Source: Acidobacteriota bacterium (lineage in GTDB: Bacteria; Acidobacteriota; Terriglobia; Acidiferrales; UBA7541). Taken from it: a stretch of DNA of 36,765 nt. The stretch lies in NCBI GenBank assembly GCA_016201215.1, contig JACQDH010000009.1, forward strand, positions 1 through 36,765, written 5' to 3'. A program made the translations under genes and the position numbers. Shown piece after piece: positions 27,287-30,992 of the stretch (position 1 is the first letter of the stretch; the number at the start of each line of letters is the position of its first letter). The notes below the pieces were generated by a model. That model was not told the origin of the DNA and made no database searches. It saw nothing but the letters and a program-made list of their open reading frames with translations.

Positions 27287-27760
27287 ATGGCAGAAGAAAC
27301 CAAGAGCGGCATGCCGACCGCGTTTCTCGCGGGCCTGGTCGTCGTGGCCCTGCTGCTTGCCGGCGTCTTCCTGCTGACGCGGAGCAGGAGCTCCGGCGAC
27401 CCTGTCGCCGAGAAACCCCTGCCCATGGGCGCAACCGAGCAGGCCTACGCCGTCCAGATCCACTTCTCCGATGTAAAGATGAGCCGCGCCGCCAATTTTC
27501 TGAATCAGGAAGTGACGTTTCTCTTCGGCTCGGTCTGGAATGACGGCCCGCGCGCCCTCCATGAGATTGAAGTGACCATCGAGTTCCACGACTTGTTTAA
27601 TCAAGTGGTGCTACGCGACTCCCGGCGCGCACTCGGGGCGCGATCGGCGCCGCTGGCCGCCGGGCAGCGCCGCGAGTTCCAACTCGGTTTTGAACACGTG
27701 CCGCAGGATTGGAACAAGCAGTTCCCCTCCCTCCGCGTCACTGGCCTGCTCTTCGAGTAG
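27287..27760 (+). CDS. Membrane-anchored protein of unknown function
   Basis: A 157-residue protein with one N-terminal membrane helix (about residues 11-30, AFLAGLVVVALLLAGVFLLT). It is followed by an extracytoplasmic beta-sandwich-like domain: AVQIHFSDVKMSRAANFL, QEVTFLFGSVWNDGPRALHEIEV and LAAGQRREFQLGFEHVPQDWNKQFP. The pattern of a conserved core ending in FEHVP-x-DWN-x-Q-x-P is familiar from uncharacterised acidobacterial proteins and looks like an Ig- or FxLYD-type fold. No function can be assigned. It is probably co-transcribed with the phosphoesterase upstream. Confidence 0.75.
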   Translation: MAEETKSGMPTAFLAGLVVVALLLAGVFLLTRSRSSGDPVAEKPLPMGATEQAYAVQIHFSDVKMSRAANFLNQEVTFLFGSVWNDGPRALHEIEVTIEFHDLFNQVVLRDSRRALGARSAPLAAGQRREFQLGFEHVPQDWNKQFPSLRVTGLLFE

Positions 27761-27789: not shown

Positions 27790-27818
27790 ACCACACCAAG
27801 CCATTACCACTTTATAAT
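27790..27818 (+). promoter_or_regulatory. Promoter for an apparently leaderless mRNA
   Basis: A perfect TATAAT (27813-27818) lies only 8 nt before the ATG at 27827. A weak ACCACA -35 is at 27790-27795 with 17-bp spacing. Transcription would begin at or within 2-3 nt of the start codon. No Shine-Dalgarno is present (CACCCC precedes the ATG), consistent with a leaderless transcript. Confidence 0.5.
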
Positions 27819-27826
27819 TTCACCCC

Positions 27827-29305
27827 ATGGGAGACGCTGCGGAACTCGAAGCGGTGCTGGCCGCGCTGATAGGGTTGGGCCGCGTGGAAATCCACGAGAA
27901 CGGCCAGTGGCTGGCGGCGCTTTCCGGCGGGCAATGCGAGGTGCGCCGCCAGGGCGCCGCCACGCTGCTGCACCTCTGGTCGGAGGAACACAACCTGGTG
28001 CGGCGCGTGTTGCGCGTCGCCGAGCGGTCAGCGGAGCGGGTGGTTCTGGAGGTGCAGCGCTTTGGGCAAACCAGGCCCGGCACATTGGAGATTGTCTGCG
28101 CCGGCGTCGAGCGTCCTGCCCAGCGCCTGACCCGGGAGAAGTTTCGCGCGCGGTTCCGCCAAATGCTCGCCGAACAATTTCCCGATGAACAGATCGATTC
28201 ACTGACCACGGCATCGGACCTCGAACATTCCCTGTCCGGTTGCTTCACCCGCGGCCTGCTGCACCGCGGCCAGCGGGCCTGGGCCATCCTTGGCGCATCG
28301 AGCGGTGAACATGCCGCAACTCTCGACGGCAGCCTGACCTATGGGCTGTTGTGGCTTGACCGGGCGCGAGAACACGCCCGCAGAAAGGTTCTCGCGGGCC
28401 TGCGCCTGTTCCTTCCCGAGGGTGCGATTCGCGTCACCTGCCATCGCCTGAGCGCACTGGAGCCCTCCACGCCTATCGAGCTGTACGAAATCAACGAATC
28501 CCGCTGGCGCGCCCGGCCGATCGATCCCCGCGACATCGGCAACCTGGCCACTTGGCTGACGCCTCGGCGCGAGACGGAGTCCACCCTGGCCGAAGCACGC
28601 CCGGCCATCGAGAAGATCCGCGTGCTGGCGCCCGAGGCGATAAGCGCCGGTGTCTCCCCCGGCACGTGCGAGGTGTCCTTGCGCTTTCGCGGACTCGAAT
28701 TTGCCCGCTGGCACAGCGGTACAGTGGTTTTTGGTTTGGGCGAGGAGCGACACGAACTCACACCGAGGAATGGGAAGAACCTCCAGAAGTTGATCCAGCA
28801 ACTCGCAACCTTCCGCCATCCCCTGGCCACCGACACCGCGCACCCGCTCTATCGCCTGCAGGCCGAGCGGTGGCTGGAGACCGTCGTCCAGGCCGACGCC
28901 ACACAGATCGACGCGCGGTTCGACCCAACGCAACTCTACAGCCAGGTGCCCGCCTTTGCCGCGGGCGACCGGGGAGTCATTGATCTGCTGGGCGTGACGC
29001 GCGACGGGCGCCTGGCGGTGCTGGAGCTGAAGGCGGCGGAGGATCTCCATCTGGCGCTGCAGGCGGTGGACTATTGGTTGCGCGTTCGCTGGCACCATCA
29101 GCAGGACGACTTCCGGCGCTACGGCTATTTTGCGGGGATCGAACTCCAGCCCAAGCCTCCTCTGCTCTACCTGGTTGCGCCCGGTTTCCGGTTTCATCCG
29201 GCCACCGACATCGTCCTGCGCTACCTATCTCGGGAGGTGGAAGTCACGCGCGTCGGCTTGAACGAAAACTGGCGGCGCGGCCTGCGCGTGGTTTTCCGGC
29301 AATAG
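27827..29305 (+). CDS. Putative PD-(D/E)XK nuclease-fold protein with long N-terminal region
   Basis: A 492-residue protein without a family name I recognise. The C-terminal third carries a restriction-endonuclease-fold signature: a helix Glu (E347/E351, AERWLETVV), D386 in GVIDLLGV, E400-L-K402 in LAVLELKAA, then Q412-x3-Y416 in LALQAVDYW. The D-x13-E-x-K spacing plus QxxxY motif resembles RecB-like nucleases. The first roughly 330 residues are mixed alpha/beta, with no motif I can name, and look like one or two extra domains. The start is the ATG at 27827 with no ribosome-binding site but a -10 at the right distance for a leaderless mRNA. Its neighbours give no clue. DNA repair or defence is possible but unproven. 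Confidence 0.7.
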   Translation: MGDAAELEAVLAALIGLGRVEIHENGQWLAALSGGQCEVRRQGAATLLHLWSEEHNLVRRVLRVAERSAERVVLEVQRFGQTRPGTLEIVCAGVERPAQRLTREKFRARFRQMLAEQFPDEQIDSLTTASDLEHSLSGCFTRGLLHRGQRAWAILGASSGEHAATLDGSLTYGLLWLDRAREHARRKVLAGLRLFLPEGAIRVTCHRLSALEPSTPIELYEINESRWRARPIDPRDIGNLATWLTPRRETESTLAEARPAIEKIRVLAPEAISAGVSPGTCEVSLRFRGLEFARWHSGTVVFGLGEERHELTPRNGKNLQKLIQQLATFRHPLATDTAHPLYRLQAERWLETVVQADATQIDARFDPTQLYSQVPAFAAGDRGVIDLLGVTRDGRLAVLELKAAEDLHLALQAVDYWLRVRWHHQQDDFRRYGYFAGIELQPKPPLLYLVAPGFRFHPATDIVLRYLSREVEVTRVGLNENWRRGLRVVFRQ

Positions 29306-29535: not shown

Positions 29536-30162
29536 TCAGTAAAACAGGTACTTGCGCCACTTCTCGTCCTTATGGCCGATCAGGCGCATGAGCTGGCGCG
29601 AAGTGTGCAGCGTGAATGGGCGTGGCCGGCGAGTCAGTTCTAGGCCCGCCTCTTCGGGCGTGCGGTCGCCCTTGCGGTTATTGCACTGGTAGCAGCAGGC
29701 CACCAGGTTTTCCCACGATGAGCGGCCTCCGCGCGAGCGTGGTATGACATGGTCCAGCGTGAGTTCGGAGGCCGGAAAGACGTTCCCGCAAAACTGGCAG
29801 GTGTTGTGGTCGCGCAGGAGGATGTTCTTGCGCGACAACGCCCGGGTCTGCTGCGGAATGTGGCGGTAGGCCAACAGCCGGATGACCGAGGGAACCTTGA
29901 GCGTCTTTGTCGCCGAGTGCACTTCCGCGTGGTTCAACTCCTCCGCCTGGGCTACACCCTTCAGCAGCAGCACCATGGCGCGGCGCACCGCGGTGACATT
30001 AATGGGCTCGAACGTGGCGTTCAGCACGAGCACAGGTTCCTGCATGACCGTAGGCCGGCTGGCCCCGGACAGAACAAGAGGCAGACGGCTCTTGTCAGCC
30101 GCCGAAGCCAGCGGCACCGTTCTCGGCCCCGGATACGATCCGTCCTGCCTGTTCATGCTCAT
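29536..30162 (-). CDS. HNH endonuclease family protein
   Basis: A 208-residue protein with an HNH (beta-beta-alpha-metal) nuclease domain. C122 and C125 (CQFCG) and C157 and C160 (CYQCNNRKG) form the zinc site; D137-H138 in [13 protein letters not shown] gives the catalytic His; N152 in WENLV and the NNRKGD end complete the motif. The N-terminal part ([17 protein letters not shown] onward) is typical of a widespread chromosomal HNH family in Acidobacteria, cyanobacteria and Deinococcus whose role is unknown. The ATG at 30162 is chosen because it overlaps the comF stop codon (ATGA), implying coupled translation. Another possible start is 39 codons later at the MQEP methionine. Confidence 0.88.
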
Positions 30163-30992
30163 GCCGACAGGTCTCCCGGCCCCTCACGTGCTTGCTGTTC
30201 CCGGCTCCAACTCGGTCCCGCCCAATCGGACATTGCCCGGGCAACGGTCAAACCGACGACGCGGGCCGCGCCAGCTTTCCGTAAGGCTCTTGCGCAGGAA
30301 TCCAGCGTCGCTCCTGTGGTCAATACATCATCTACCAGCAAGACCCGCAGGTTGTCAACCCGCGCCCGTTCCCGAATAGCGTATGCGCCACGCACGCTTT
30401 CCCAGCGCTCGTGACGCGTAAGTTTCAGCTTGGCCGGGCGCGGCTTGATGCGCACCATCAGTTCGGAGCGGCACGGCAGGCCCAGCCGGCGGGCCAGCGG
30501 GCGCGCAATGAGTTCCGCCTGGTTGTATCCCCGTTCGCGCAGGCGGGCAGGGTGCAGTGGCACAGGCACGACCACGTCCGCGGCGAGGGATTCGGGCTCG
30601 CCAGCCACCACCTCGGCCAGCCGCGCCGCAAACCAGTCGCCCAGCGGCGTCACCGCGTCGTGCTTCAGCAGGACCACAGCCCGCACCATCGTGGCGCTGT
30701 AGCCGCCGTAGCTGCGCGCGAGATCAAAACCATACACATCCCTGCGACACAGGCCGCAAAGCGGTTGCTTCGCCAGGGCCGCCAGAGCCGAGACAAACGG
30801 CCGGCCGCACTTCTGGCAACCGGGGCCGGGAAAAGGCCGCAGCGAACTCAGGCACTCGCGGCAGATGGGGAGCCGGCTGGCCGTCTCGAGCGTGGCCTCG
30901 CAGATGCGGCACGGCGCCGGGAAGGCCAGCGAGGCAAGTGCATCGCAGACCTCTCGAAGGATACCCCGGGCAGGTAGGCGAAGCGGTGACAC
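30159..30992 (-). CDS. comF: ComF family phosphoribosyltransferase-like protein
   Basis: A 277-residue ComF-family protein linked to natural DNA uptake and, in some bacteria, to replication-fork restart. The N-terminal zinc region holds four cysteine pairs (C28/C31, C44/C47, C59/C62, C79/C82). The C-terminal phosphoribosyltransferase fold has [23 protein letters not shown] and the PRPP loop [14 protein letters not shown] (215-228). The start is uncertain: a GTG at 30992 is annotated, but the strong GAGGAGG lies 13-20 nt upstream, better placed for a CTG 4 codons earlier. The stop overlaps the HNH gene start, an unusual pairing of a competence-type protein with a nuclease. Confidence 0.88.

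Follow-up and report, generated by a model that had tools for sequence, protein, structure and literature searches.

Our analysis suggests that the gene at 27827..29305 (+, stop codon included) encodes a half-dead tandem PD-(D/E)XK DNA endonuclease that would serve chromosome maintenance in the Acidobacteriota; this is the best explanation we can offer for the gene and, taken as a whole, we rate its chances as about even. The gene lies in a stretch of 36,765 nucleotides of acidobacterial DNA (the window), and its 492-residue product is predicted to hold two nuclease folds in one chain, an N-terminal one whose active site is lost and a C-terminal one that would be active, with a beta domain before each. 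The family to which it belongs is phylum-wide and unnamed, displays a new domain order and is related to NucS without being a member of it. Chains in which one PD-(D/E)XK domain is intact and another inactivated have been proposed before (COG1395 and COG4127; PMC1189080), and we therefore rate the present family as a variant of an already proposed architecture.

The open reading frame is a genuine gene. Translation of the forward strand gave 492 residues and a stop codon, homologues were found, and a comparison of the window gene with that of a genus-mate revealed differences at 0.20, 0.13 and 0.46 of the first, second and third codon positions, respectively, a pattern that indicates selection on the gene as a protein. 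A conserved antisense gene at 28199-29197 was considered and rejected, as the longest antisense frames ranged from 109 to 500 amino acids among homologues. A TATAAT -10 element was found at 27813..27818 (+), 8 bases before the ATG, and no Shine-Dalgarno sequence was found ahead of this start codon. As TATAAT recurred at -12 to -15 from the start codon in 21/70 homologues from several families, transcription probably starts from a promoter of the gene's own and yields a leaderless message. Apart from the window, the loci with TATAAT placed 12-15 bases before the start and no Shine-Dalgarno sequence were L003, L004, L006, L007, L008, L010, L012, L024, L028, L029, L047, L048, L055-L057, L062, L063, L065, L066 and L070; repeated in several families, this arrangement has the appearance of a conserved leaderless promoter architecture.

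An initial annotation of this DNA had read E347/E351, D386, E400-x-K402 and Q412-x3-Y416 as a RecB-like PD-(D/E)XK plus QxxxY signature. Translation confirmed each residue in its place, and E347, D386, E400, K402, Q412 and Y416 were identical in 166/166 distinct homologues, 14 of them from other classes of Acidobacteriota, so that the conservation of D386, E400 and K402 on which the annotation had staked its reading was complete. The same six residues were invariant in an alignment of 70 homologues (70/70), in which E351 was present in 66. Judged from these alignments, the conservation is far more than would be expected of a chance motif. The putative catalytic domain (NucS_C/DUF91-like, residues 340-492, 28844..29302, +) was delimited by conservation, AlphaFold2 (AF2), Foldseek and profile comparisons. 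On the forward strand it comprises the motif I glutamate E347 in the first core helix (28865..28867), D386 of motif II (28982..28984), E400-L401-K402 as the E-x-K of motif III (29024..29032) and the QxxxY motif Q412-A-V-D-Y416-W417 (29060..29077), in which W417 was found in 165/166 and D415 in 69/70 homologues.

The full-length AF2 model, built on an alignment of 58 homologues, had a mean pLDDT of 90.9 and a pTM of 0.82. It placed a helix at residues 346-356, strands at 365-372, 386-391 and 396-401, a helix at 409-425 and a strand at 446-452, which is the alpha-beta-beta-beta-alpha-beta core that had been set beforehand as a test of the assignment; residues 346-491 run as helix, three strands, helix, strand, helix, strand and strand. 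D386 starts the second strand, E400 and K402 end the third, and Q412 and Y416 lie on the helix that follows. This core, together with the conserved acidic residue, D and (D/E)-x-K, assigns the domain to the PD-(D/E)XK superfamily, and QxxxY after motif III, the counterpart of which is QALDY in NucS_C proteins, assigns it to the RecB-like subgroup. Ahead of the nuclease domain, AF2 predicted a five-stranded beta domain plus helix (residues 272-329, 28640..28813, +) and, on the strength of a Foldseek match to EndoMS (5gkj_B), these residues may occupy the place of the N-terminal DNA-binding domain of EndoMS/NucS.

The approximately 330 N-terminal residues had been described as lacking any nameable motif, which is true of the catalytic residues, but not of the fold, as the region was predicted to hold a second PD-(D/E)XK-fold domain (residues 98-232, 28118..28522, +), recognized from the order of its elements in AF2, from Foldseek and from the substitutions at its site. 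AF2 placed a helix at 98-117, strands at 122-127, 141-147 and 150-156, a helix at 169-182, a strand at 188-197, a helix at 202-208 and strands at 217-223 and 228-232; the resulting order (alpha-beta-beta-beta-alpha-beta-alpha-beta-beta) matches that of residues 346-491, and the pLDDT of both nuclease-fold domains was about 90 or better. A separate fold comparison of the N-terminal part, which the initial annotation had proposed, was made by folding residues 1-264 alone (mean pLDDT 90.1) and searching the PDB with Foldseek. This yielded XisH 2inb (probability 1.00, TM 0.61 on the target) and XisH 2okf (probability 0.99, TM 0.54), with a weaker match to the nicking endonuclease Nt.BspD6I (probability 0.66). 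XisH has an accepted place in the PD-(D/E)XK superfamily, and an earlier survey used it as a seed (PMC1189080). No sequence match was found between the N-terminal half and XisH.

With the site placed by element order, the D position of the N-terminal domain is R142 in 160/166 homologues, and hydrophobic residues, Gly, Ala or other small side chains take the E-x-K positions across the 166; R142, R207 and P197 were less constant in more distant classes. Residues 98-232 are thus predicted to have the nuclease fold but not its catalytic site, the catalytic positions being replaced across the family. The domain is preceded in the AF2 model by a seven-stranded beta domain (residues 20-91, 27884..28099, +) that Foldseek related weakly to PTB, PH and lipocalin folds and that may represent a PH/PTB- or lipocalin-like module for binding DNA or a partner, and a long helix (residues 247-265, 28565..28621, +) joins the two halves. 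Internal duplication at the sequence level was dropped as an explanation, as hhalign detected no similarity between the N- and C-terminal halves at several cuts and settings (probability <1 % each). The shared fold is retained as a structural claim that rests on the predicted structure, and common ancestry of the two halves is not demonstrated by sequence profiles.

NucS_C/DUF91 nucleases and, by fold, EndoMS/NucS and Card1 are supported as the closest relatives of the C-terminal domain by both profile and model comparisons. Weak matches within the phylum proved to be NucS_C (DUF91)-domain proteins, and hhalign matched the C-terminal half to an alignment of seven such Acidobacteriota proteins at 97.4 % (E 1e-11), with D...ExK...QALDY in common. 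In profile searches of the PDB, NucS (2vld) and Card1 were the best matches, although weak ones (Card1, E 0.003). EndoMS 5gkj_B was the best Foldseek match of the full model (probability 1.00, E 3e-4), extending over 242 columns for a 229-residue target, but with an rmsd of 22 Å and a TM of 0.30, so that the relative placement of the subdomains is not reproduced. Given the length of this match and the absence of EndoMS from the 50 best matches of the N-terminal half, it most likely sits on residues 265-492 of the model, beta domain included. Card1 (6wxw) was matched by the full model at a lower probability (0.63), and XisH was also among its matches.

No curated family model recognizes the protein, which bears out its description as a member of an uncharacterized nuclease family. 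Pfam returned no match at E≤10 and the protein hence falls below the gathering cutoff of NucS_C/DUF91 (PF01939), a model that was matched by 8/58 family members with a best E of only 0.013. The NCBIfam NucS equivalog (NF003270) scored 14.2 bits against a cutoff of 216, which rules out a canonical NucS identity. No PHROGs family was matched, a Foldseek search of a viral structure library gave nothing below E 0.001, and the match to PADLOC PDC-S11 was weak, being confined to an active-site stretch of 33-78 residues (at most 78/492; best E 1.8e-5).

The spread of the family and its neighbours, which had been put forward as checks, were both examined. Homologues were found in 86/101 related genomes, mostly as one copy each, and in an even draw of 297 Acidobacteriota genomes 100 had a match at E≤0.001, of which 14 had short NucS_C-type matches only and the rest the family proper. 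The best 80 of 573 relatives from the profile search were all from Acidobacteriota or its subgroups, the closest being Acidobacteriota metagenome-assembled genomes, many of them Terriglobia or Candidatus Acidiferrales; a single-sequence scan of genome contigs beyond Acidobacteriota found nothing. The gene tree (76 rows) required 13 family-label changes against a minimum possible of 12, and this agreement with taxonomy indicates vertical inheritance. Four genomes that are 93-100 % complete and belong to one genus (g23) of the same class lack the gene (G072, G080, G094 and G100), which is a lineage-specific loss. The single departure from taxonomy in the tree concerns an Acidiferrales-family genome (G030, contig C11) with a second copy, L062, that nests within family f6 and may reflect horizontal transfer or bin contamination. 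A plasmid, phage or viral origin was considered and rejected: no homologue was found in plasmid or phage records, and the sole viral candidate was a doubtful 38 %-identical homologue on an IMG/VR contig classed as viral (IMGVR_UViG_3300031670_000658, locus L180), which may be a mis-sorted piece of acidobacterial chromosome.

In its own order, the gene is preceded by genes for a metallophosphoesterase and a 157-aa protein and faced by genes for an HNH nuclease (29536-30162, -) and a ComF-like protein (30159-30992, -), which lie just downstream on the opposite strand. These were also the candidates for an operon or functional partner, and they were rejected because, across about 190 loci, they were constant in the own order only; in other orders and classes all four were absent or elsewhere, and the 157-aa gene was even reversed in some loci. 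In loci of these other orders and classes the neighbours were ordinary genes, among them those for a thiolase and a peptidyl-prolyl isomerase as well as for TldD, a DinB-superfamily protein and a beta-lactamase-fold protein. The neighbours are thus metabolic or housekeeping genes that change between orders, with no constant partner, and no defence island surrounded the homologous loci. The HNH_5-type gene showed 70-91 % identity within the order, overlaps the ComF-like gene by 4 bases and recurs with it in nearly all loci of the order. The 157-aa protein (27287-27760) carries a hydrophobic segment at its N-terminus and belongs to no Pfam family, and in other orders its gene stays near the nuclease gene, approximately 4-6 kb away on the opposite strand.

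Under the explanation that we favour, the protein would be a metal-dependent DNA endonuclease of the NucS_C/DUF91 branch of the PD-(D/E)XK superfamily. Each chain would have one active site, in which D386, E400 and K402 (with E347 and Q412/Y416) would carry out phosphodiester hydrolysis. The dead domain may grip DNA together with both beta domains, much as the second subunit of the homodimeric EndoMS does, so a single strand would be cut per binding event and the likely product would be a nick. We infer that, as a stand-alone, vertically inherited enzyme with structure- or lesion-selective cutting, it would act on the chromosome to repair or process DNA of abnormal structure. A further elaboration, in which the chain is a covalently fused, EndoMS-like pseudo-homodimer with one half switched off that grips a DNA lesion or mismatch in the manner of EndoMS but nicks one strand only, alongside MutS, is, to our judgement, unlikely.

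Of the two roles that the initial annotation had left side by side, repair and defence, the distribution argues for the former: presence in 86/101 genomes, mostly in single copy, vertical inheritance, metabolic neighbours and no plasmid or phage homologues together indicate chromosome upkeep, which is probably the role of this family, rather than virus defence. An anti-phage or anti-plasmid nuclease might have been expected from the weak PDC-S11 match and from the resemblance in fold to Card1, an ancillary nuclease of CRISPR systems; a near-universal and mostly single-copy gene outside any defence island, encoding a protein without a CARF-like domain, makes such a role improbable. EndoMS tops the fold matches of the full model and NucS is among the two best PDB profile matches, which could instead indicate an enzyme that, as a functional counterpart of EndoMS/NucS, cuts DNA specifically at mismatches. 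This has a slightly better prospect than defence, but is still unlikely: MutS was matched in 61/61 genomes searched (above the family cut-off in 54), whereas NucS is mostly found where MutS-MutL is absent (PMC5290159), the equivalog score is far below its cutoff, and the C-terminus shows no conserved clamp-binding-like motif. The MutS matches also make it unlikely that the family replaces MutS mismatch repair.

The presence of HNH and ComF-like genes just downstream in many Acidiferrales-family loci raised the idea that the nuclease acts with them upon incoming DNA during natural transformation or upon recombination intermediates; we consider this about as improbable as defence, since both genes are read from the other strand and do not stay with the nuclease gene in other orders. 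Some PD-(D/E)XK proteins have RNA as their substrate and, within its own family, the nuclease gene has queA nearby, so an RNA- or structure-specific nuclease that targets RNA instead of DNA (e.g. to process or degrade tRNA) was also weighed and is judged highly improbable. Its nearest relatives by sequence belong to NucS_C/DUF91, a group whose studied members cut DNA (PMC5290159), and queA is not a constant neighbour. A chromosome-maintenance endonuclease acting on DNA stays our preferred reading.

Compared to known systems, the family shares with EndoMS/NucS (archaea, Actinobacteria and some Deinococcus-Thermus) a NucS_C/DUF91-type C-terminal domain with D, E-x-K and QxxxY and, going by the predicted structure, may also share a beta domain ahead of the nuclease domain. 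However, EndoMS is a homodimer of subunits of about 230-250 residues, whereas here one 492-residue chain would carry a dead and a live fold, in a family that coexists with MutS and falls far below the NucS equivalog cutoff. COG1395 (the P. abyssi PAB2104 family) and COG4127 (STM4490) likewise pair an intact with an inactivated PD-(D/E)XK domain in one chain (PMC1189080); compared by description, the live domain leads in COG1395 and a helix-turn-helix separates the two, whereas here the dead domain comes first with a beta domain before each, and COG4127, also compared by description, carries an Mrr-type live domain. Card1 (6wxw) has a PD-(D/E)XK domain with a similar motif I-II-III region, but couples it to a CARF domain that senses cyclic oligoadenylate; the N-terminal half here was modelled by AF2 and Foldseek as a beta-barrel and a dead PD-(D/E)XK-like domain and not as a CARF (Rossmann) domain. 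XisH (2inb, 2okf) has the same fold as the N-terminal degenerate domain, but XisH proteins are small, single-domain members of the fdxN-element excision system, unlike this chain.

That curated models leave unnamed a gene found almost throughout a dominant soil class marks a gap among bacterial genome-maintenance enzymes. Its dead-plus-live arrangement predicts single-strand nicking, and its relation to NucS_C ties the family to the mismatch endonuclease EndoMS. In a survey of NucS, no bacteria other than Actinobacteria and Deinococcus-Thermus were reported to have NucS or a NucS-like protein (PMC5290159), a picture that would be extended by a distant NucS relative kept through the Acidobacteriota beside MutS. 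If the pseudo-homodimer reading were true, the Acidobacteriota would gain an extra strand-nicking repair pathway alongside MutS.

NucS_C domains as such were sporadic, being present in 11/61 genomes. The acidobacterial proteins with a NucS_C (DUF91) domain (L181-L184, L186, L204 and L205) are 250-390 amino acids in length and sporadic in the phylum, and most carry this domain at the N-terminus, followed by a long unassigned C-terminal part.
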